In this document: piece after piece, positions 24,064 to 35,858 of the stretch | How the letters are laid out: every line of letters begins with the position of its first letter | Numbering within the stretch: the first letter of the stretch is position 1 | Origin: Armatimonadota bacterium | GTDB taxonomy: Bacteria; Armatimonadota; Fimbriimonadia; Fimbriimonadales; Fimbriimonadaceae | Direction of reading: 5' to 3' | Length of the DNA: 64,000 nt | NCBI GenBank assembly: GCA_018268255.1 | Contig: JAFDWX010000001.1 | Location: 1-64,000 of the forward strand | Notes under the pieces: generated by a model | What the model saw: only the letters and a program-made list of their open reading frames with translations | Told to the model about the DNA's origin: nothing | Database searches by the model: none | Translations under genes and position numbers: made by a program

Positions 24064-26765
24064 CGAGAAGACCTCGCTGCTGTTACCCGAATCTGACCGG
24101 AACTCTGCCGGGCGATGAACTCGAAATTGGCGCTTCGGGTTTTTGCCACCTTGATGCCGTTTGGCAAACGAACTGAATATCCCATCAGGCTTCCTTGAGT
24201 CACTTGAATTTCGAGGCGATACTTCGCGCCGGGCACTGCGTTGGCCATTTGAATGAGGAATGTCTCGGGGGCAAGCCCAGACCGAACGTCGCGATACAAG
24301 CGGCTGTTCCCTCCAAGAGAAAGTTCTAGTCCACCCATGCTGGGTGGCAATTCGCTATCGATCCCCGGCTGTATCTTGGAGTTTCCATCCAGGCGCCCGA
24401 CCATCATCGCTTGTGCCATGCCGTTTGGCCCATAGAGTCGTGCACGAAGTTCGTATCGCACCCCGGGGCCTGTCGAGCGGCCCGAGCTTTGATATTCCCG
24501 GGTTGGAAAGAGAATCAGGACTCCTTCGGGTACCAGTACCTTGACGAATACACCTTGACCAGGCTCGATAACCGAATTCCCAACCAAAGATCCGGTCTCG
24601 GCGAAACCTGTTGCTGGGTCAGAAGACCCTTTCAAGAAGGTGAACATGTCCGGCGCGATCAGTCCCGCGGCCGCCGCATCTTGATAGCTCCGTGCAAAGT
24701 CTGTAGCTCGCACTACCACCAATTGAGTGACATCGACCGCTTCGTTCAGGGGGTTGACGACAAGATTCCAACCTTGATTGCATGCCGCGGGCAAAGGCGT
24801 TTTTCCTGGAAGCAGTCCATCGTAAGTCACAGCTTGGTTTGCATTCGAGCGGATGAAAAACCCTTGCCCTAATCCAGCATTGCCGAAAGACGGATAGAAC
24901 TGGTAACGGCCAGCTGCGTGGTTCCACCGAGCTGCCAACACGTTGGACTGAACCACTTGTCGCACATCACTCGAATAGGGCTCTCCGACAAATCCTCGTA
25001 AATCCACGCCTCCCTGGAGGCCCCCCGGCCAGACGATGTCGCCCTCCCCCTCGATATGTAGATTGAGCGCAAGGGAGCCCGGCCCTTTGTTGACCCATCG
25101 AGTCGCGATCACGTCACCATTTCGGAGCACCATGACCTTGATTCGTCGCTGACTGCGACGGAAATTCTCGTCAGTGATGGTCGCGCCAAACGCCGAATGA
25201 GTAACTGGCAAAGTTTGCGTGACCAAACCAGAAGCCCAGGTGAGGGCAACCTGATAAGCAGCAGTGTCGCTCGGGCTGTTGCCGGTGATCACACCGTAGA
25301 CATCGTTCGGATTAGGGTTCGTTGCGGTCGCGATGGCACCGGCGGGCAAATAGCTTCGGCTGACGCGATCATTGACAGGAACGTCAACGGCGACTCGGTA
25401 AGCCTCGCCACCAAAACTCGTGGCTGGAAAGTTGGGCGCTACGGCACCATAGCCCGCGCCGATGGATACTTTGTCATCTTGGCCCGCTGTGAAAAACCTG
25501 GTGTAAGAGGGCGACCAGAAAACAGGATAGGATGTGCCGGTGAGCAGTGTTTCGTTGCCACTCGCATCGGTCCGAAAATAGTGGACCTGAATGCCGAAAA
25601 CTCCAAAATCAGTGCCTCCCAGATTGCTCGTGATGGGAAACGGCTGAACCTGGAGTTTCTCTCCCGGGATGAGAGTGCCATCCAAGATCCGCTGCCGATT
25701 CATCCATCGCCCAAAGGTCAGGCCCTCGACCGTCGAACCGGAGCCCCCAAGGGTATCGAGAGAAGCCTGCGCCAAGCTTGCGATCTGTGATGGGATAGGA
25801 TTGGCGTACCACCGGCTGAGAAATTCCGCCGCAAAGCCTGGATATTCGACCAAGACCTTCTGCATCGCCGAGCCCGCCATCTGATATCGCAGCAGATACA
25901 ACCCACCGGTCGAGCCTCCGATCGGAAGAGGCAAGTCTCGCAGATTGGGAGCAATGAAAGCGGGTCCAGCTAACGCAGATTGATTTTGCCACTCGTACGT
26001 GGGGCCAATGTCATAGGTGCTCTCAAGCTGCTGTTCGATCACGTCTTGATCCAACCCAGCTGGCAGTGCACCAGGCGTTCGGGAGACCTGCATCACAGCA
26101 GACCGAACAAGACCCTCTTGCCACCCATCGTTGGGAAGGTTCTTCGGACCGATGTAAGCCAAAAGCAAGCAGTGGACGAAGTTCACCGCGGCAGATTCGA
26201 GCTTGTATCCCGCGATGTCGGCATAGATCGGGAATCGGATTTCTTGGACGTTGTTAGCCCAATCGGCAACATATGCTCCACCGGCCACCGCATCACGCTC
26301 TCCGATATCAGCATCGAAATTCGACACCAGCACGTTTCCGCCTAGTGCAGGTTGCCCGAAAACCGCGTCGAGTCTCGGCTTGACCGTCGAGTAAATCGAC
26401 TGCAAAAATGCCTGGTAATCAGTGGGAAAGGCACGAATGCCGGTCCCCCAACTCAAAGAAATCGAGGTGTCTCTACCTCTTGAAGTTGGAGGCGGAACTT
26501 CTCGCCCACTCCGTTTCAGCACCACGGTGACCGGCATGGAGAGAATCGATGTGTCTCGCTTGGCCTGTCGCTCACGTCGCGTGAGTTCGGCCATGTTACG
26601 ACCAAAAACCCGTACCGCAGCATCGACTTGAGCATCGATCTGATCAAGACTGCGGGTGGACGCAACCTCGACCGGAATGACCGTTGCCCTCGCTGAAGAT
26701 GCAACGAAGGCAACGGTCAGAGCGGACCAGGCGTTAGCCCAGCGAAACTTGGGGGATTTGCTCAT
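24060..26765 (-). CDS. Large exported protein with degenerate metallopeptidase-like core
   Basis: A 901-residue protein starting at ATG 26765, which overlaps the preceding stop (TGATG). Residues 8-28 are a signal peptide ending SSARA. Residues about 120-270 resemble a gluzincin-type peptidase: AAVNFVHCLLLAYIG then GWQEGLVRSA. The expected HExxH reads His198-Cys199-x-x-Leu202, while the downstream glutamate (Glu217) remains, so catalysis is unlikely. The rest (about 300-900) is beta-rich, with a C-terminal domain about 790-900. No family name can be given with certainty. It sits between two lipoprotein genes with four-base or shorter overlaps, so the three products probably act together at the cell surface. 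Confidence 0.7.
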   Translation of the reverse strand: MSKSPKFRWANAWSALTVAFVASSARATVIPVEVASTRSLDQIDAQVDAAVRVFGRNMAELTRRERQAKRDTSILSMPVTVVLKRSGREVPPPTSRGRDTSISLSWGTGIRAFPTDYQAFLQSIYSTVKPRLDAVFGQPALGGNVLVSNFDADIGERDAVAGGAYVADWANNVQEIRFPIYADIAGYKLESAAVNFVHCLLLAYIGPKNLPNDGWQEGLVRSAVMQVSRTPGALPAGLDQDVIEQQLESTYDIGPTYEWQNQSALAGPAFIAPNLRDLPLPIGGSTGGLYLLRYQMAGSAMQKVLVEYPGFAAEFLSRWYANPIPSQIASLAQASLDTLGGSGSTVEGLTFGRWMNRQRILDGTLIPGEKLQVQPFPITSNLGGTDFGVFGIQVHYFRTDASGNETLLTGTSYPVFWSPSYTRFFTAGQDDKVSIGAGYGAVAPNFPATSFGGEAYRVAVDVPVNDRVSRSYLPAGAIATATNPNPNDVYGVITGNSPSDTAAYQVALTWASGLVTQTLPVTHSAFGATITDENFRRSQRRIKVMVLRNGDVIATRWVNKGPGSLALNLHIEGEGDIVWPGGLQGGVDLRGFVGEPYSSDVRQVVQSNVLAARWNHAAGRYQFYPSFGNAGLGQGFFIRSNANQAVTYDGLLPGKTPLPAACNQGWNLVVNPLNEAVDVTQLVVVRATDFARSYQDAAAAGLIAPDMFTFLKGSSDPATGFAETGSLVGNSVIEPGQGVFVKVLVPEGVLILFPTREYQSSGRSTGPGVRYELRARLYGPNGMAQAMMVGRLDGNSKIQPGIDSELPPSMGGLELSLGGNSRLYRDVRSGLAPETFLIQMANAVPGAKYRLEIQVTQGSLMGYSVRLPNGIKVAKTRSANFEFIARQSSGQIRVTAARSSR

Positions 26766-28078
26766 CAATCTTGATAAACAAACGAACCAATCTCGCTGAG
26801 GGTGCGGCTGATTTGATCGGATGTGGTCCCGATCACGATAAAGTAGTAGGTTCTGCCATTTTGCAGCGCGACATTTCCGTTGTACTGCAGTTCGACTCCG
26901 GTCACAGCCTGGGTATTGCTCCAAATTTTCTCGACTCCGTCGCCAGGATACCGGTCGAAGAGATACACGTAGTAGCCGTCAGCCGACGTAACGGAATTCC
27001 ATCGGAACGTGAGTGGATTCGTAAGGGTTTGCCGCAAAACGAGGTCGTTGAGCGGCGTCGCAGTAACTGGATCACTCTGGGGACCCTCAGTGTCATCGTA
27101 GTATGGGTAGTCCGGGGAGGTCGCAGCCACTTTGTAGCTATAGGCGATCCCTGGTGTCAAGCCCGTGTCGGAGTCGATGTAAACGCTTCCCAACGGCTCT
27201 CGGAAGAAATCGTAGCTTCGATAGTTGGTGCTGTTCGCGGCCCGATAAATGTCATATCCAAGGAGATCCACCGTTGGGATGGGATCCCACTCGATTTCCA
27301 TTTCAACTGGATTACCCAATGAACTTAGCCTGGTAGCAGGAAGCGATGCCCGTCGCGGACTGAGCATGCGCTTGATTGCTTCGAGTCCACTGATCATCTT
27401 CTGGTCTCTCGTCACAGGCGAGGTCCACGCGATGATGCCAACGTTTTTGGGCTGTGGAAGTGTTTCGACCAAGGTCGAACCCATCGTAAAGTCCAGCCTT
27501 ACCTTTTCGTTGGCGTGCAGGGTCACGAAATCCGTATCGGATCGATATCCCCCTGTGTTAGCCTGAACCGTGTAAGGGATTCCCGCCATGAGCCTGTCGA
27601 TCTTGAAATAGCCGTTCTTATCGGTCACCACCTTTGAGCTTCCGATGTAGCCATCACCAAACGCGAACACTTCGGCAAGCTCCAGCACGGCTCCTTGCCT
27701 ATCGAAAACGTAACCTTCGACCGATGCAGTCTGATCTTCGGGCACCATCACGATATTGATGTTTTGATCCTGTTCGCCTTCGTAGGTGCGAGCCAGATTC
27801 GATCCCACGTAATCCGTTCCACCTTCGCTGTACGTCGCGGTCACCAGTTGGTCCGAAGCCCGGACATTTTCGATGACGTAGGCTCCGTTTGTTCCCGATA
27901 CGGCGGAGTTGTCGCGCATTTTCACCGTCGCACCGCGAACAGGCAGCCCGTCAACGAACGTAACCCGGCCCGAAACGATCGCGGTGTTCTTGGTGGTGTC
28001 GCCGCCACATCCAGCAATGAGGAGCATCATTGTCAGGGCAGCTCCAAACCCGCTCCAGTTCTTTCGCAACGTAAACAT
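26765..28078 (-). CDS. Lipoprotein with carboxypeptidase-regulatory-like and fibronectin type III domains
   Basis: A 437-residue lipoprotein, first gene of the operon. Lipobox LIAGC (Cys24) follows the signal helix. Residues about 35-110 (VSGRVTFVDGLPVRGATVKM) and 120-200 (VEGYVFDRQGAVLELAEVFA) are carboxypeptidase-regulatory-like domains. Residues about 245-340 and 345-437 are fibronectin type III-like (DLLGYDIYRA, YSYKVAATSPDYPYYDD, then a second repeat). It is likely a surface scaffold or adhesion component on the periplasmic or outer face. The upstream gap of 76 bases is shared with a divergent gene and includes a CTCCC/GGGAG palindrome. Confidence 0.78.
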   Translation of the reverse strand: MFTLRKNWSGFGAALTMMLLIAGCGGDTTKNTAIVSGRVTFVDGLPVRGATVKMRDNSAVSGTNGAYVIENVRASDQLVTATYSEGGTDYVGSNLARTYEGEQDQNINIVMVPEDQTASVEGYVFDRQGAVLELAEVFAFGDGYIGSSKVVTDKNGYFKIDRLMAGIPYTVQANTGGYRSDTDFVTLHANEKVRLDFTMGSTLVETLPQPKNVGIIAWTSPVTRDQKMISGLEAIKRMLSPRRASLPATRLSSLGNPVEMEIEWDPIPTVDLLGYDIYRAANSTNYRSYDFFREPLGSVYIDSDTGLTPGIAYSYKVAATSPDYPYYDDTEGPQSDPVTATPLNDLVLRQTLTNPLTFRWNSVTSADGYYVYLFDRYPGDGVEKIWSNTQAVTGVELQYNGNVALQNGRTYYFIVIGTTSDQISRTLSEIGSFVYQD

Positions 28079-28154: not shown

Positions 28155-28874
28155 ATGGAATCCGAGGAAAAGAATGATAATTTGGTGGTCAAGACTCACC
28201 ATCAGGGCCACGAAGCGGAACTGACACCGGGAGATCAGGCGATGATCGAGCTGGATCCCGTGGGTGTGACCATTACACGGGGCCTGGTGAACCAGTTCCC
28301 TGGCCCAAAGGACCCTGATGCTGCCCATCTGCTGGAACAAATTTTCTTGGCCCATCGGGAGAGCGACGGCCCCACGATCTTGGAGCTTGCCGGGCGGTTC
28401 CGGGAGAGGTACGGCTGGCATCCCAGGGTTGAGTGGTTCCGAGTTTTGGCGATGAAAATCGTCAACCAACCCGACCTCATTGCCGCCCAGCGGGCCCTTC
28501 TCGAGTCATACGAGCGGGCCGCAGCGGGTTATCCGCCCACACCAAGCTCACCTCTGCAATTCGAAATCCCCAACGAGACGTGGGACTGGGCCATCGGTGC
28601 CAACTATTTGAACCTTATGGAGTGGCTATGGGATGCTGGCAAATATGCAGAAGCCATCCAGGCATTTGGACCTAGTTTGCAGGGCCTGACGCAAAACGAT
28701 GATAAGGGACGGTGGGTCGAGCGTTTACTCTATAAAGCTTCGAGCTACGCTCGAAACGGCCAGAAGGATGAGGCCAGAGCCACGTTCGAAGAAGCAAAAT
28801 CGATCGACAAAACAGAATTTTCTCGTCTTTGGGAGCTTATGTCCCCTAAAATGAGTGAGTTGGAGCAACTATGA
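28155..28874 (+). CDS. Cytoplasmic TPR-like helical protein, function unknown
   Basis: A 239-residue protein from ATG 28155; upstream in-frame codons are out of character and would overlap the divergent promoter region. No signal peptide or membrane helix. It is helix-rich throughout; residues about 165-235 (YLNLMEWLWDAGKYAEAIQAF, LLYKASSYARNGQKDEARATFEEAKSID) have the tetratricopeptide spacing of small and large residues. The N-terminal 60 residues are acidic. It overlaps the next small gene by ATGA and that gene is followed by a sigma factor gene, so a regulatory role is a fair guess, not shown. Confidence 0.7.
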   Translation: MESEEKNDNLVVKTHHQGHEAELTPGDQAMIELDPVGVTITRGLVNQFPGPKDPDAAHLLEQIFLAHRESDGPTILELAGRFRERYGWHPRVEWFRVLAMKIVNQPDLIAAQRALLESYERAAAGYPPTPSSPLQFEIPNETWDWAIGANYLNLMEWLWDAGKYAEAIQAFGPSLQGLTQNDDKGRWVERLLYKASSYARNGQKDEARATFEEAKSIDKTEFSRLWELMSPKMSELEQL

Positions 28875-29014
28875 AGCGCACAATGTTATTCCGAATCAGC
28901 TTTCTCTTGGCCGTCTTGGCCACTCTCCAGATCGTGGCTCCGGTAAGCAGCACCGCGAATGCTGCCGTGGCACCCGAAATCACCAAGAAGAACGACGCTG
29001 AATCTCCCGGCTAG
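28871..29014 (+). CDS. 47-residue exported peptide
   Basis: This small gene starts at an ATG that overlaps the previous stop (ATGA), with GGAG five bases upstream. The product is a basic start (MKRTMLFR), a hydrophobic helix (about 9-24, SFLLAVLATLQIVAPV), an SSTANAA-A type cleavage region near 32, and a polar tail VAPEITKKNDAESPG. So nearly the entire protein is a signal peptide plus about 15 residues. It ends 36 bases before the sigma-factor gene. No family recognised. It may be a secreted signalling peptide or a small membrane-associated partner of its neighbours. Confidence 0.7.
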   Translation: MKRTMLFRISFLLAVLATLQIVAPVSSTANAAVAPEITKKNDAESPG

Positions 29015-29050
29015 AACCAGACCGCACCTATTCGACCGAGGAGAAGGACC

Positions 29051-29725
29051 ATGGCTAACACCGAAGACACCTTTGAGGTAGATCGCATCATCCACCGGCT
29101 CAAAGCTGGGGATGAATCGGCGCTTGATCTTTTGCGCAAGCATCTGTACCGCAGAATGCTCAGATCAGCGCTCGATGTTACAGGACAAATGCCCCAAGCC
29201 GAAGATGCGGTCGCTGTGACACTTGCGAAAGTATGGCGAAAACGAGACCTTCTCCCGGAAACATGGACTGAAGCCTCGCGGTACGTCATTGCGATGGCTC
29301 ACACCGCTGCCATCGACATCATCCGAATTCGAGAAGAGCAGGCGACTAAAGTTCCATTGGACGAAGCTCGCAAATTGGTTGCCGAAGAAATCCCTGTTGA
29401 GGGCATCGACGAAGAGCTTGAAGAAGCACTGTGCAAGGTGGAATCTCTCCTGATTCCCCAGTTGAGTGCTCGGCACCTCAAAGTCCTCACTCCGGTTGCG
29501 GCGATGATCCAGCAGACCGAAGAGCAGAACATGCAGGATGTTTACCGACAGGTTGCAACCGAAAAGGGCATGAATGCGGGTTCGGTTCGAAACTCGTGGT
29601 GCGACGCTGGCAAAATCCTCCAGAATGTTCTCTGCAGTCTGGGATGGGGTGATTGCGGCGATTCCGATGTTCGGTTCGTCCTCGGGCGGATCGGCAGTCG
29701 CTTGGGATCGGCTTCCGCCCTTTAG
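29051..29725 (+). CDS. ECF-type RNA polymerase sigma factor
   Basis: A 224-residue protein with a clear region 2: IIHRLKAGDESALDLLRKHLY (about 13-33), then QAEDAVAVTLAKVWRKRDLLP (47-67) and ASRYVIAMAHTAAIDIIRIRE (about 74-94), matching the promoter-melting helices of extracytoplasmic-function sigma factors. Region 4 is poorly matched: residues 140-190 are helical with DVYRQVATEKGMNAGSVRNS, where a HTH would lie. The C-terminus is a short Gly/Ser tail. GAGGAGAAGG gives a strong ribosome-binding site. The gene follows the TPR-like gene and the 47-residue peptide, with no anti-sigma factor in sight. It converges on the barrel gene with a four-base overlap. Confidence 0.75.
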   Translation: MANTEDTFEVDRIIHRLKAGDESALDLLRKHLYRRMLRSALDVTGQMPQAEDAVAVTLAKVWRKRDLLPETWTEASRYVIAMAHTAAIDIIRIREEQATKVPLDEARKLVAEEIPVEGIDEELEEALCKVESLLIPQLSARHLKVLTPVAAMIQQTEEQNMQDVYRQVATEKGMNAGSVRNSWCDAGKILQNVLCSLGWGDCGDSDVRFVLGRIGSRLGSASAL

Positions 29726-32313
29726 CGGCCGAAGAAGTTGAACGCAAGTTCGAAATCTAGCCCGGAAGATCGATAGGCTCCGCTCTGGACGAACGGATCA
29801 CGATTCGAAGTTCGACGGTGTCGATAGCTCGCATTCAGCGCCAGAGATTCCCAAATTCGGTACTGGTACGTCACTCCCCAGTCAAAATTCTCTTGACCGA
29901 GATATCCCGTCGATCGCCCGGAGTTATAGTCCAGCAGCAAGCTATGCCTTGGCGCCATCTGGTAGCTGATGTTGCCCACGAACGTTGAGCTGTCTTGCCG
30001 GAACGTGCTGTTCCCCATGCTGTCGAACACGCTCCATCCCAGCGTGTAGCTCCATCGACCCCGTCCTCCGGAAAAGTCGAGCGACACCGATTGCACGCCT
30101 GACTTGAGCGGCGAATCACGATAGGTAGTGTTGCTCCGATCGTATTGAAGCGAAAGCTGGTGGTAGTTGTCAAAGCCGTAAGTCAACCCAAGCCCTGTCG
30201 AGTTGGTGCGCGAATTGCTTGTGACCGATCCGAAAGACTGCTGCTGGCGATATGTCCCGGTAATCGCTAACCGCTCGAAAGGCAGATAGCTCAGGCTGGT
30301 GGTCCAAAGCCGCAGGTTCGTTCCACCGGCGATTGTTGTGCCGCCCGTTCCACCGCTGAATCCGTTGCCGCCGTAGCCCAGACCATAGCCTCCGGTGTAC
30401 CGGTTGAGCGTTGCCAATGCTCCGGAGTCGCTAACGTCGTACCGGGTGCTGAACTTGAGCTGGTCGCTGGGCAGCACCGATGCTCCGATCTCGATATCCC
30501 GTCCCGTGCCAGTGGTTCCCTCAGCTGTGATTCGCTGCAAAGCGTAATTCGCGCTGACGCTGGCAAGAGTCCTTCGCTCTGCTTGAACATCCTTATCTTT
30601 CGACTTTGGGCGCCATGGAAGACTGTATACGGCTCCGATCTTGGACCCCAGAAGATTGAACTGGCTCACACCGGTCGTGCTTCCTCGGTATGCGCCATCT
30701 TGCTGGTTGACCCCAAGAGTCCAAGTGAGGTTTTGGCTATCGCGGCGGAACAGCGTCAGTTCGCTAGTGTTCAACTTGGTTTGGCCCGTCGCGGTGATGG
30801 TCCGTGTTCGGCGATGGTTGAGTTCAACACGATCGTTCGTATTGGCTCGGTAGGCGACTCCACCTGTCAGCGTGGTGAATCTTGACATCGTCCCCGTTGA
30901 AGTCAGCGATGACTTCTGGCTGATGCTCGAATTGGACCGCATGAGTTGAGCGGACCAGCGATCGGACGGCAGGTATTGGATGGTCTGATCGTTCACGACC
31001 TCGTTACGATTGAAGCCTCTCGTCTCCACCGAAACGTATCCGTTCGGGACTTTTCGCACATTGGCCGAAAGGAGGTAATCGCCAGCCTTGTAGGTCAGAC
31101 TTGCTCCACGAGCCAATCCGCTGGTAGGAGTCGGAGTTCGCATCAATCGCCCTGCTGCTTGGTAGAGCTTGAGTTCTCCGGCTCGACCTTCCTTGCCCAA
31201 TGGCAGGGAGTAATCGAGTCCGACGACCTCCCGATCACCATCGACCGTATTGGTAGGCTTGGGAGTGTAGACGACGTCGATCTCGTCGGTCGCCTGCATA
31301 AATCGGGTGAAGTAGAACACCGCTGCATTGTCGGGATCGAAGTAGTAGTCGATACCTTCCCGCTGGATAACACCGTTGACCCGAATGATCAGGTCCGCAC
31401 TGGGCAGCGGTTCAAATTGCAGAAAATAAGGGGTGGAGGGTGCGCCGAAGCCCTCGAATTTTTCCAGTCTGGTACTGACGCCACCGCGATTTCTGGAGAT
31501 TTGACGCATGAGCGTGACTCCCAGCTTTCCGACACGACCGATGTCATAGCTCATTCCGAAGCCCTGCACGCTTCCACGACTGTCGTTAAATCCGAGTGCC
31601 TCGAAGCTCACCAAAATGGTGCTGGTCACGGCTACCGTTCTCGAGAGAAAGGTGATCGATCCCGCCTCATAGTTGATGATGTAATCGGTGCCAAGCGTCA
31701 TCGGCACATCATCCACGCGAACAGACTCCGAGCCGTAGATGATTTGCGAAGTTTGCAGATAGTACGGTCCAGCCGAGTTATTGCCTTGAATAGCAATAGT
31801 CTTCGGGCTGCCTTTAACCTCCGAAAGCACCGATTTCGCCGCGAATCGTCCTTGCTTGTATCCCGCGGTGATGCCCCGAAGCGATTTGTTCATACTCGCA
31901 AATCGGTTGGTGTTCAACAGGGAGCCTTGGATATCTCCCGCGCTGATTGCGAAACCGTTCTTGTCGTAGTCAACGCTGAAATGCTGGCCCTGAGGGTCGT
32001 TGAGGCGAGTATCCAGGATCGTGCCTTGGAAATTAAGTACACCCAGGACTTTTCGACCCGTGATGTTGATTTGGCCGATATCAGTAAACCGCTTTTGCCC
32101 CTCGCCGTAGTAGTTAAGCGAATTGAAGGCGTCCCGGTCGCCCTGGACTTTTTGAAGGTGCATCCCCAAGCGGCGGTATCCCGAGATCTGGATTCGATCC
32201 ACCAAATTAGCCTTCCACCACTTGGCCCATTTGGGCACATTGCTGGGCGTCTGGGCACCCACTGATCCAGTTAGGAGCAGCAGCAGTACCCCTGCTAAGA
32301 GCGACCGATGCAC
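29722..32313 (-). CDS. Outer-membrane beta-barrel protein
   Basis: The 863-residue protein starts at GTG 32313, giving signal peptide MHRSLLAGVLLLLLTGSVGA-Q. An N-terminal periplasmic part (about 40-340) contains repeats of the form YYLQTSQIIYGSESVRVDD and TDYIINYEAGSITFL, a pattern shared with SprA-like and related surface proteins. From about 350 on, alternating hydrophobic strands with aromatic girdles (GLTYGFDNYHQLSLQYD, ALNASYRHRRTSN) continue to the last strand LDFELAFNFFGR, typical of a large beta-barrel. No TonB box or plug was seen. The start overlaps csaB by 19 bases, so the two are translationally linked. Confidence 0.8.
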   Translation of the reverse strand: MHRSLLAGVLLLLLTGSVGAQTPSNVPKWAKWWKANLVDRIQISGYRRLGMHLQKVQGDRDAFNSLNYYGEGQKRFTDIGQINITGRKVLGVLNFQGTILDTRLNDPQGQHFSVDYDKNGFAISAGDIQGSLLNTNRFASMNKSLRGITAGYKQGRFAAKSVLSEVKGSPKTIAIQGNNSAGPYYLQTSQIIYGSESVRVDDVPMTLGTDYIINYEAGSITFLSRTVAVTSTILVSFEALGFNDSRGSVQGFGMSYDIGRVGKLGVTLMRQISRNRGGVSTRLEKFEGFGAPSTPYFLQFEPLPSADLIIRVNGVIQREGIDYYFDPDNAAVFYFTRFMQATDEIDVVYTPKPTNTVDGDREVVGLDYSLPLGKEGRAGELKLYQAAGRLMRTPTPTSGLARGASLTYKAGDYLLSANVRKVPNGYVSVETRGFNRNEVVNDQTIQYLPSDRWSAQLMRSNSSISQKSSLTSTGTMSRFTTLTGGVAYRANTNDRVELNHRRTRTITATGQTKLNTSELTLFRRDSQNLTWTLGVNQQDGAYRGSTTGVSQFNLLGSKIGAVYSLPWRPKSKDKDVQAERRTLASVSANYALQRITAEGTTGTGRDIEIGASVLPSDQLKFSTRYDVSDSGALATLNRYTGGYGLGYGGNGFSGGTGGTTIAGGTNLRLWTTSLSYLPFERLAITGTYRQQQSFGSVTSNSRTNSTGLGLTYGFDNYHQLSLQYDRSNTTYRDSPLKSGVQSVSLDFSGGRGRWSYTLGWSVFDSMGNSTFRQDSSTFVGNISYQMAPRHSLLLDYNSGRSTGYLGQENFDWGVTYQYRIWESLALNASYRHRRTSNRDPFVQSGAYRSSGLDFELAFNFFGR

Positions 32314-33365
32314 CCGAGAAGAACCTCGATATTCCCTTCCGCCTGGGAACGCAGTTCGCCCACTTTCTTTTCGATCTGAGCCTTGAGACGATCGCGATCG
32401 CGATGCATCGCCATGTAACCTTCGACAATCTGAGTCGGGTTGGCCTTGAGTGCGTCCACAGCGGTGGGCAGCCCCATCAGTTGGCTGAATGCAGAAACTT
32501 TTGGATCGTAACTGAGCATCAGTGGGGGCAATCCCATTGCCGAGGCGAGAATTCCACCATGCAGCCTCATCGAAATCACTCCGTCCAATCGCACAAATTG
32601 CTGCATCATCTGCATGGGAGTGTTGAAGTTCTTGATGGTCGGAATTTTTCCACCTTGACGTTTCTCGATCTCCATAATCAACGGCCGATCGTCCTCCCGG
32701 TCCATTTCGACCAGCATCGGCATCATACGGAGCTTCATGAGTTGGGCGCACAGTTCTGAAAAAAAGTTGGCGATTTGAGGTCCTTTGCCATGGGGACGAG
32801 GGATTACGGCAACACCGGTCATACCGCCTAACTGATACGATTCGACGCTTGGATCCACGGTCGGTTTCGGTAACAAGAAGGCGAGATCGGCGGTGACCCT
32901 TGGCGTCCCCTTGTAGCCCACATCCTTGAGGGCCTTTACGGATTGCGGATCGCGCACGCAGATCGCGTCGCACGAGTTGAAAGCGCCTTTCGCCAGCTGT
33001 TTCCCGAAAAGACTATTGAGCGGTCCAATGCCTTGACCGAGCAGCACCACCTTTTTGTTCGACTTCTTTGCGACCCGTACCAAATTGGAGTAATAAGCGA
33101 CGCTCTTTACGCTGGTCACGTCCTGGAAAATGCTGCCTCCAGCAAAGACAAGCGCGTCGCAGCTCGCGATGGCCTGACCAAATTCAGACATATCACGCCG
33201 GTTTATGGTCTGGACGCCATACATCCGACGGGTCTCCTCTGGGTTGCCGCTCATCACCGTGACATCCACGTTTTTGCCCTGCATCCCCTGGAGAAAGCCC
33301 AGAAGAATCGCATCATCCCCCACGTTGCCACAACCGTAATATCCGGCGACGAGAACCTTGCTCAC
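32295..33365 (-). CDS. csaB: Polysaccharide pyruvyl transferase CsaB
   Basis: CsaB adds ketal-linked pyruvate to cell-wall polysaccharide, which serves as the ligand for SLH-domain proteins. The 356-residue protein starts at GTG 33365 with GGAGGAG eight bases upstream and a GTGA overlap with the DUF5693 gene. It opens SKVLVAGYYGCGNVGDDAIL, the family N-terminal nucleotide-binding motif. FAGGSIFQDVTS, VLLGQGIGPL and ISMRLHGGILASAMGLPP are further CsaB/WcaK signatures; His in RLHG is the usual catalytic-site residue. csaB beside DUF5693 is a known arrangement in diderm and monoderm SLH-bearing bacteria. No SLH protein is encoded in the window. Confidence 0.9.
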   Translation of the reverse strand: MSKVLVAGYYGCGNVGDDAILLGFLQGMQGKNVDVTVMSGNPEETRRMYGVQTINRRDMSEFGQAIASCDALVFAGGSIFQDVTSVKSVAYYSNLVRVAKKSNKKVVLLGQGIGPLNSLFGKQLAKGAFNSCDAICVRDPQSVKALKDVGYKGTPRVTADLAFLLPKPTVDPSVESYQLGGMTGVAVIPRPHGKGPQIANFFSELCAQLMKLRMMPMLVEMDREDDRPLIMEIEKRQGGKIPTIKNFNTPMQMMQQFVRLDGVISMRLHGGILASAMGLPPLMLSYDPKVSAFSQLMGLPTAVDALKANPTQIVEGYMAMHRDRDRLKAQIEKKVGELRSQAEGNIEVLLGCIGRS

Positions 33366-35185
33366 GCTGGCTGCTCCTCCGCCGTTCTCGTCAGGAGTGG
33401 TTTCAAGGCAAACCAAGCCAGTGTTCCCAATACTCCTCCAATAATCCAGCCGATCGAGATCCGAGCCAGGCTCAGGAGAACAGGCATGTGGAGATGGCAC
33501 AGAGTGTTCACGACACTGGTCTGGCCGATCGCGCCAAGGCAGATCAATCCCAGAGCAACGTATCTCAGTTTGCGGTTGGGATGAGCCACGCTGGCCCCGT
33601 AAGCCCAGAGTCCAAAGATCAGCGCAGGATGCCCCATCAGAAACTCCTTGGTCCGTGGGCGCGTGAAGAGCAGCCAATCCAGAAGGGCACGCATTCTGAG
33701 TTCAAAATCACTCACGCCAGCCGGGTTGTCGTTCCCCGTGCGCATCAGCATAAAGCCGAGCACCGCCAACAGCAAGAATCCACCGAGCATGCCGGCCCAG
33801 GTAATCGGCGTCTTGAAGATATCTTTGAGAGGCCGTTCCCGCGATAGGAGAAGGAGCGAGATGACGACGATGGGAAGGAAATGGGCAACCTTGACGGCCT
33901 CAAATTGGCGGATTTTGACGAAGTAGTCCAGACCGTTCAGCATGCCAGCGACGCTCAGGCCGCCAATCAGGCTCACAAAAGTCATGACGAAGTACGACAC
34001 GAGCGGATGCATCTTGTCGCGGTCCATCCACAGCAAGTAGGCTCCGACGGGAAAAGTCATTGCCCCCACCAGAGCCGTTATCGGTCTGAGCGATTGCACT
34101 GCCGCACCTGCTAGACATGCAGCCACAGCGATGATGCTCAGCAGGTACATCGCTCTGTTTTGCTTGAACAGCTCCTGGGCAACTCCGAGTGCAGAGCCGG
34201 CGATTCCGGCCGCCAAGACGATTAACAACCATTGGGGAACGCCCGAATCCTCAAACGGCTTTGCCCTACCCAGGGGTACCCCTTCTTTTTCTAATCCCAG
34301 CTTTACCCGCGCGATCGAACCCAGGAACGCGTCCAGTTGGTTCTCTGCCGCATTGGTGAGAGGCCTGAGAAGGAGAATTCTGATGTTACGCTCACGGGCC
34401 GCCTTAACAAATCGCTCTACGTACTCGGCCGGAGTGAGCTTATCAACCTCCGCCGACTGAATCGCGTGGAGCCTGATCAGATCGGTCTTCATGGCCTCGG
34501 CCATGCGCGCATCTCCGGCGATCTTGGCGAACTCCGGCTGGATGTAGGCCATCTTGATCCTCTCCATGACGCGGGCCGTTGAGGGCACGAGTTCTCGCTG
34601 TCCCAACACCTGTTCTCCCAATGGAAGGTATCCGTCGGCTCCTGCCGATTTGCTGTTGGCAAGCGTGTAGTCGATCGAGGTTAGGGTTTCTCCGGGAGTG
34701 TTGATGTGCCGACAAATGATTTGAAGTCCGGCTTTCTTTGCCGCAGCGACTTCGCCTGGCTCCAATCCCAGAGACAGGTCTCGCGGGAGTTCTTTGACAA
34801 GAACAGGGCCGTCGGGCACAAGGCTGTACTCCAGCTCGTTTTGGTCCAGCGCGTCCTGAAATCGCCTCTGGTCTATTCCACTGACCCCTAGATATTCAGG
34901 CTCTTCACCATAGGCTCTGACTTGGAGATGCCCTTTTGAAATCGATTCCGTTACCAGGGTCTCTTGGAGAACCACGGTCACCAGCCCCACACCTTTGGCC
35001 ATCCCCATGGCTTTCTCCAGAGGGATATGGGCTCGTCTTGCGGCATCGTCAATGATGCTTGCCTCCACTGCTAGTGCGGTTGCCTGGTTACGGGATTCCA
35101 CCGAAATTCGGTAGCGAACAGAAAGGCAAGCAGCCACCAGCGTGATTGCAGCGCAAATTTTGAAGAGCGTGAGTCCCCTATCCAT
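33362..35185 (-). CDS. DUF5693 family membrane protein
   Basis: A 607-residue membrane protein. Residues 8-27 form a signal-anchor helix; an extracytoplasmic domain (about 30-320) follows with RIEKAMGMA-like and LGLEPGEVAAAKKAGLQIICR and RILLLRPLTN segments typical of the family; from about 325 to 600 there are about eight membrane helices. The combination with csaB is recurrent and suggests a role in exporting or anchoring the pyruvylated polymer; no enzymatic function is known. I start at ATG 35185 because MDRGLTLF gives a compact signal anchor; upstream ATGs at 35197 and 35200 are alternatives. Confidence 0.8.
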   Translation of the reverse strand: MDRGLTLFKICAAITLVAACLSVRYRISVESRNQATALAVEASIIDDAARRAHIPLEKAMGMAKGVGLVTVVLQETLVTESISKGHLQVRAYGEEPEYLGVSGIDQRRFQDALDQNELEYSLVPDGPVLVKELPRDLSLGLEPGEVAAAKKAGLQIICRHINTPGETLTSIDYTLANSKSAGADGYLPLGEQVLGQRELVPSTARVMERIKMAYIQPEFAKIAGDARMAEAMKTDLIRLHAIQSAEVDKLTPAEYVERFVKAARERNIRILLLRPLTNAAENQLDAFLGSIARVKLGLEKEGVPLGRAKPFEDSGVPQWLLIVLAAGIAGSALGVAQELFKQNRAMYLLSIIAVAACLAGAAVQSLRPITALVGAMTFPVGAYLLWMDRDKMHPLVSYFVMTFVSLIGGLSVAGMLNGLDYFVKIRQFEAVKVAHFLPIVVISLLLLSRERPLKDIFKTPITWAGMLGGFLLLAVLGFMLMRTGNDNPAGVSDFELRMRALLDWLLFTRPRTKEFLMGHPALIFGLWAYGASVAHPNRKLRYVALGLICLGAIGQTSVVNTLCHLHMPVLLSLARISIGWIIGGVLGTLAWFALKPLLTRTAEEQPA

Positions 35186-35858
35186 GAATCCAGTCATCAC
35201 CGTCGAACAAGCGCCCCTTGAGAATTTGTGCTCGACCGCCGGCGATCAGAACGGTGAGCATGCCTGCCAAAAATCCGCCTACGTGCGCCCAGTTGGCGAC
35301 GCCTGCTTGAGGAAAGAAAATTTGATAGCAGAACCAGAATCCGAGCATCACCCAAGCGGCGACCTCAAACGGGATCAAGATTGGGTAGACCACTATCGTG
35401 ATTCGGTGCCCTGGAAAGAGCAACAGATAACTGCCCAATACGCCCCCGATCGCGCCGCTTGCCCCCAATGTTGGCACCAAAGACCCGGACATGACGAAGA
35501 CGTGAGCCACGCAGGCGACGATGCCCCAAAACAGATAGTAAAGCGTGTATCGGACCGGGCCATAGGCGTGCTCCACGTTGTCGCCAAACGTGATGAGAAA
35601 TACCAGATTGGCGATGAGGTGGAGCAGATTTCCGTGAAGGAACAAACTCGTAAAAATGGTCACCAGGGCCTTGGGGTCGCCTCCACTGAGGGCCGAAGTG
35701 ACGTCTCTCGGCACCATGGCGAGGTCGGTGAAGTTGATGCTGGCCCCGAACGGGTTCCAATTTCGATCCCACAGGTAGATGAGAACGTTCAGTGCGACGA
35801 TCGTGTATGTAACGACCGGAGTTTGCCTGGATTCGCTTTCATCACGGATCGGAAACAT
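35178..35858 (-). CDS. Rhomboid family intramembrane serine protease
   Basis: A 226-residue protein with six membrane helices. The nucleophile is Ser134 in TLGASGAIGG and the partner His192 in NWAHVGGFLAG. HGNLLHLIANLVFL (helix 2, with the HxxxN hallmark) and the N-terminal TPVVTYTIVALNVLIYLW are typical. The protein cleaves membrane-anchored substrates within the bilayer. It precedes the DUF5693 and csaB genes with a short overlap, so it is likely part of that operon, and a role in releasing or sorting surface proteins is possible. Confidence 0.92.
   Translation of the reverse strand: MFPIRDESESRQTPVVTYTIVALNVLIYLWDRNWNPFGASINFTDLAMVPRDVTSALSGGDPKALVTIFTSLFLHGNLLHLIANLVFLITFGDNVEHAYGPVRYTLYYLFWGIVACVAHVFVMSGSLVPTLGASGAIGGVLGSYLLLFPGHRITIVVYPILIPFEVAAWVMLGFWFCYQIFFPQAGVANWAHVGGFLAGMLTVLIAGGRAQILKGRLFDGDDWIHG

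Follow-up and report, generated by a model that had tools for sequence, protein, structure and literature searches.

A cassette encoding a TPR-like protein, a small exported peptide (39-71 codons), and an ECF-type sigma factor was found in Armatimonadota, with the same gene order at all eight TPR loci. The chances are about even that the cassette is a Rap/Phr-like peptide circuit, with an ECF sigma factor as its output and the TPR protein as a peptide-gated sigma regulator. No peptide signal that activates genes is known from this phylum. A stronger form of this proposal is advanced tentatively, as somewhat less than an even bet: the cassette may represent an undescribed peptide quorum-sensing family in diderm Armatimonadota, with the TPR protein as an anti-sigma factor gated by peptide, so that an extracellular peptide directly controls the ECF sigma factor. 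If this reading is true, the compact cassette would carry peptide communication into another phylum, one whose cell envelope is different, and would provide a case in which a TPR protein gates a sigma factor.

The overlapping three-gene arrangement was confirmed in the window, which is the whole 64,000-nucleotide stretch of DNA analysed. The features are collected in Table 1. The initial annotation had described a TPR-like gene, an ATGA-overlapping gene of 47 codons, and a sigma gene with its own ribosome-binding site; all three were recovered at the same positions. The ATGA overlap between the small gene and the TPR gene is present in four of the eight cassettes.

Table 1. Coordinates of the cassette features and neighbouring genes (window positions unless a contig is given).
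Feature	Position	Strand	Description
TPR-like gene	28155-28874	+	239 aa
Small exported peptide gene	28871-29014	+	47 aa, MKRTMLFRISFLLAVLATLQIVAPVSSTANA/AVAPEITKKNDAESPG; shares ATGA with the TPR gene
GGAG ribosome-binding site of the small gene	28862-28865	+	inside the TPR gene, 5 bases before the ATG of the small gene
Codons GCT GAA TCT CCC GGC TAG	28997-29014	+	AESPG and stop; conserved C-terminus of the small peptide
Ribosome-binding site of the sigma gene, GAGGAGAAGG-type	29039-29048 (approximate bounds)	+	
ECF-type sigma factor gene	29051-29725	+	224 aa; region 2 and divergent region 4 (GMNAGSVRNSWCDAGKILQ)
CarboxypepD_reg/fn3 lipoprotein gene	26765-28078	-	divergent from the cassette
Same lipoprotein place in G001	L095:1-389	-	
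DUF5693 block	29722-35200	-	
DUF5693 block in G001	L095:2653-8161	+	
Pseudopilin-like paralogs in G063	L099:5980-7940	-	three copies
Pseudopilin-like paralog in G050	L100:9260-9784	-	one copy

Protein searches of 41 genomes showed that close homologues of the TPR and sigma genes are adjacent only in G001 and G002 (53-56% identity), the remaining two genomes of the genus. A small exported ORF lies between the two genes in both. A profile of the three TPR proteins identified three further loci in other genera (G044, G070, and G063), each with the TPR gene, a small exported ORF, and the sigma gene in the same order. A second profile round added G050 and G027, the latter belonging to another family; a third round, covering 291 genomes of the phylum, identified no further cassettes. 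The cassette thus occurs in 8/113 genomes of the order and in 0/178 of the other phylum genomes searched, and the identity of the TPR proteins to the window protein falls as low as 20%. These eight cassettes include two from close relatives and three from one genus. The conserved gene order that had been anticipated from the window alone was borne out, and homologous loci without the small gene or its frame, which had been named as the case against the proposal, were looked for and did not occur. Weak TPR matches (E > 1e-5) were rejected as cassettes; they are generic TPR proteins, for example one beside dihydroorotase. The cassette TPR was absent from viral contigs in a short-pattern scan, and no relative of the cassette sigma factor was found in plasmids.

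The small genes encode MKRTMLFRISFLLAVLATLQIVAPVSSTANAAVAPEITKKNDAESPG (window), MKLTKWICLVLMTMLVLGASAQPLASVPVEATKKGNDAESPG (G001), MKSQFVWLGLVAIAIGSAISGFTVASDAGVRHLVKDAVVAVWMPLTSDEEAESPG (G002), MKCIRISVLLALLACAVIGQAYPVGRLLPFEPAKETPGS (G044), MIRKLMLIVVGLAFAVNLALLGMPNKASTQVMMASGQSNVDSHTVNPNKPDKGDEGPG (G027), MKLKLIVLLAFSAFVAVWANAQSDGATTTGTKSMMQSSPCQAAVATLGAGGDTGEQKEGGK (G070), MKKLATILATVLAVSMLSNAALNSVHIAHAPTAIVADSEGHGGGKGSRDSEGHGGGKGGHRFVVEARQISA (G063), and MRKIASTLFLSIAFAIAVMAMPGKAQTSTHNGPVMLADSEGHGGGRADSEGHGGGTGHHRVDQTTVYSA (G050). The 47-residue product of the window begins with basic residues, followed by a hydrophobic core and an ANA/A cleavage-like site. All eight peptides share the basic start and hydrophobic core together with AxA-like sites, as judged by a simple hydropathy test, not by SignalP. 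When the same code was run from the sigma side, a signal-peptide ORF ending less than 100 nt upstream of the sigma gene was found in all of the cassettes. The same test was positive at 1/24 of the other sigma loci of the own genome, where the hit is a membrane-like ORF of 82 aa, and at 0/27 of the ECF loci of relatives. The other ECF loci that most resemble the cassette sigma factor (L073-L094 and L004-L008) were considered as hidden cassettes, and were rejected because no small exported ORF is present upstream. The small ORF is short and has no database family, as would be expected of a chance reading frame in the gap between the TPR and sigma genes. However, its presence in every cassette, the restriction of motif changes to synonymous ones, and its low frequency in dinucleotide shuffles of each gap (signal-peptide ORFs in 0-0.9% of cases) leave this explanation with next to no probability.

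Comparison of the codons shows that the ends or repeats of the propeptides are under protein-level selection, because the residues are kept through silent changes only. The last five residues before the stop codon, AESPG, are identical in the window, G001, and G002. They are encoded by GCT GAA TCT CCC GGC, GCC GAA TCC CCT GGC, and GCC GAG TCG CCT GGC, with synonymous changes in four of the five codons. A pattern search of 113 genomes for [DE]AESPG followed by a stop found it in frame only in these three cassette genes; a fourth match, in G057, lies out of frame inside an ORF of 340 aa and was dismissed as chance. In G063 and G050, each peptide carries DSEGHGGG twice in tandem, with silent differences only. 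Other [ST]EGHGGG matches in 291 genomes were also chance occurrences in other frames or genes; small exported peptides with the motif were found only in G050 and G063. The initial annotation had expected a variable tail behind a conserved signal part. Within the genus the reverse was found, the signal part varying and AESPG being fixed, and between genera both parts differ. The genera differ in the C-terminal motif: four of the eight peptides end in ESPG or EGPG, the motif of G044 stands one residue from the end, G063 and G050 carry internal repeats instead, and G070 is without E-[STG]-[PH]-G. The latter pattern is common to 7/8 peptides, but it was noticed post hoc, and we do not count it as proof. 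Duplication of the pheromone segment within the gene has been documented for Phr/RRNPPA propeptides (PMC5199041, PMC11343458). A fixed tail or repeat is the normal pattern of Phr/PapR propeptides, which strengthens the peptide-signal idea.

The TPR motifs of the window protein agree with one another, though they are weak and stay under the Pfam cut-off (TPR_19, 5e-5; TPR_2, 8e-5). AlphaFold2 predicted a TPR superhelix for residues 52-239 (pLDDT 85), preceded by a low-confidence N-terminal extension of about 50 residues with short strands. No HTH was found in the protein using Pfam and NCBIfam, and it has no signal peptide. The initial TPR-like assignment agrees with the model, whose superhelix is shaped like the peptide-binding half of Rap/PlcR, although generic TPR proteins match equally well. 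The model gave Z scores of 13.5 with RapI, 12.8 with RapF, and 12.5 with PlcR-PapR, and up to 15.5 with unrelated TPR proteins; LGN and designed TPRs equal or exceed the Rap/PlcR scores. A specific Rap/PlcR likeness was dropped for this reason. The predicted fold allows peptide binding without proving it. Five residues are invariant in all eight TPR proteins: M1, D27, P49, N153, and R190. By our own repeat register, N153 would be position 6 of a TPR helix A, which we take to be the groove site that carries a peptide-contacting Asn in other TPR proteins. The N-terminal extension (window residues 8-50) lies outside the TPR fold, has loosely shared residues in all eight proteins, and is without a known match; it may be the part that contacts the sigma factor.

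The third protein is a bona fide two-domain ECF sigma factor. The Sigma70_r2 score of the window protein is 22.5 bits, just under the Pfam cut-off of 24, and its homologues in G044, G050, and G027 score 36-52 bits. Region 4 of the window protein was not found by Pfam. The family profile matched SigL in the PDB over both domains (E 8.5e-12), as well as SigW, SigH, and AlgU; with SigL, SigH, and AlgU the alignment extends through region 4, and a helical C-terminal domain is present in the AlphaFold2 model. The profile match and the model bear out the ECF assignment of the initial annotation. In most accounts, dedicated anti-sigma domains restrain ECF sigma factors. Among the neighbouring genes that were checked, by Pfam or by eye, none was recognised as belonging to a known anti-sigma family (ZAS/ASD or other), in line with the missing anti-sigma gene of the initial annotation; divergent anti-sigma factors can escape such models.

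In Bacillota, as well as in their phages and plasmids, TPR proteins are described as intracellular sensors of peptide pheromones (PMC10075063, PMC9765709). A full-text search of open-licence papers, which is weak evidence, gave no account of such a cassette in Armatimonadota, nor of an ECF/TPR pair through which peptide pheromones act. The cassette resembles the RRNPP(A) systems of Bacillota (Rap-Phr, PlcR-PapR, NprR-NprX, Rgg-SHP, and ComR-ComS) in several features. In both, a cytoplasmic TPR protein is encoded beside a small exported propeptide, and by the heuristic signal test the adjacent gene for a Sec-exported propeptide is present in every cassette. A short conserved segment, corresponding to the active segment of the propeptides, stands at the propeptide end (AESPG, three genomes) or is duplicated (DSEGHGGG, two genomes), and the candidate receptor has a predicted C-terminal TPR superhelix. 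The ComRS pathway also ends in a sigma factor, SigX. However, the cassette TPR proteins are shorter (214-267 aa), have no HTH or recognised Rap three-helix domain, and show no sequence relationship beyond generic TPR. The cassette also includes its own sigma gene, of the ECF type, its host is a diderm, and its candidate peptides are hydrophilic and rich in Gly, Pro, and Glu. The best reading is that the cassette works like RRNPP systems but is not a member, since one defining feature, the HTH or three-helix N-terminal domain, is lacking.

The cassette also shares features with known ECF systems. Like classical ECF operons with a membrane or soluble anti-sigma factor, it places a two-domain ECF sigma factor in a small operon with a presumed regulator; here, however, the presumed regulator is a TPR protein together with an exported peptide, with no recognised anti-sigma domain. 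The nearest ECF precedents are ECF42, with a C-terminal TPR extension, and ECF54, with a TPR-CHAT neighbourhood (PMC8999054), both of which tie TPR modules to ECF sigma activity. In the cassette, by contrast, the TPR protein is encoded by a separate upstream gene, a CHAT protease is absent, and the TPR and sigma genes are separated by one for an exported peptide.

The peptide circuit might operate as follows. The propeptide would be exported by Sec, and signal peptidase and periplasmic proteases would cut it down to a short peptide of hydrophilic character, for example AESPG. At about 460 Da, this peptide would be small enough to diffuse outward through porins, and might accumulate with cell density or export activity. 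It would then be re-imported through an oligopeptide ABC transporter and bind the groove of the TPR protein. One oligopeptide-binding SBP_bac_5 protein is present in the genome. The TPR protein would replace the classical anti-sigma factor and hold the ECF sigma factor inactive, and peptide binding would free the sigma factor; less likely, the TPR protein activates it. We infer processing, diffusion, re-import, TPR binding, and sigma release alike. A point against this circuit is that a re-imported peptide would have to cross two membranes in a diderm. The peptide-sensing circuit suggested by the initial annotation is upheld in its gene order, selected exported peptide, ECF sigma factor, and TPR fold, but not in its expected pattern of tail and signal. 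AESPG, ETPGS, EGPG, and DSEGHGGG are candidate ligands for synthesis.

Three other explanations have to be weighed against this circuit. One concerns the role of the TPR protein. It might simply be a soluble anti-sigma factor or sigma chaperone, with the small exported protein being no ligand but a product of the regulon whose gene sits in the same operon, such as an antimicrobial or periplasmic peptide. Most TPR proteins bind proteins rather than free peptides. Furthermore, coupling between TPR modules and sigma factors is already known, since a TPR extension has a regulatory role in ECF42 factors (PMC8999054). We nevertheless consider this rather unlikely, given the strictly middle position of the small gene, its ATGA overlap with the TPR gene in half of the cassettes, and a repeat duplication that is typical of signal propeptides. 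The same anatomy would also fit a cell-autonomous monitor of export or of the envelope, in which the small protein is secreted without serving as a signal between cells. When left unexported or unprocessed, it would bind the TPR protein in the cytoplasm, and the sigma factor would in this way be informed of the state of Sec or of the envelope. Envelope stress is a classical trigger of ECF factors (PMC8103513), and envelope genes (polysaccharide pyruvyl transferase and DUF5693) lie near the cassette in two genomes. The fixed C-terminal pentapeptide and the tandem octapeptide, however, point to a processed short ligand and not to a whole pre-protein, and within the genus it is the signal part that varies; such a monitor is accordingly judged unlikely.

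A translation-arrest leader appears quite improbable. In this case, a SecM/MifM-like nascent chain would stall the ribosome at the last codons (ESPG-stop) and control translation of the sigma gene. A signal sequence with a conserved C-terminal motif at the stop codon, directly upstream of another gene, does resemble the Sec monitoring substrates, which have a patchy distribution (PMC10987492, PMC7897499). SecM, MifM, VemP, and ApdA share with the cassette the small exported protein, its conserved C-terminal residues, and its position directly upstream of a regulated gene. The downstream gene of the cassette is a sigma factor, though, and the position of the motif is not fixed, being internal and duplicated in G063 and G050 and shifted by one residue in G044. 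RNA structure over the sigma start is also unremarkable (z -0.8 to +1.7) and lends no support to attenuation. These two observations weaken the arrest explanation. At a length of 39-47 residues, moreover, most of the signal sequence would still be inside the ribosome at the stop codon. The TPR gene, which is always present in the cassette, would be left unexplained.

The cassette gives the impression of a self-contained unit. The flanks differ between genera, and those of G050 and G063 are syntenic with each other. A lipoprotein gene (CarboxypepD_reg/fn3) is divergent from the cassette in the window and occupies the same place in G001. This conserved place and an intergenic region of only 76 bp in the window make it a candidate target or co-regulated gene. 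The genes for DUF5693, polysaccharide pyruvyl transferase, and a barrel-like protein adjoin the cassette in G000 (the genome of the window) and G001, and as a block they are inverted between these two genomes; in G001, a rhomboid gene lies between the cassette and this block. Small membrane-anchored, pseudopilin-like paralogs are divergent to the cassettes of G063 and G050. In three divergent cassettes (L042, L048, and L041; reverse strand), the hexamer CGTCTA precedes the TPR start by about 20-50 bases and could be the ECF -10 element of an autoregulated promoter.
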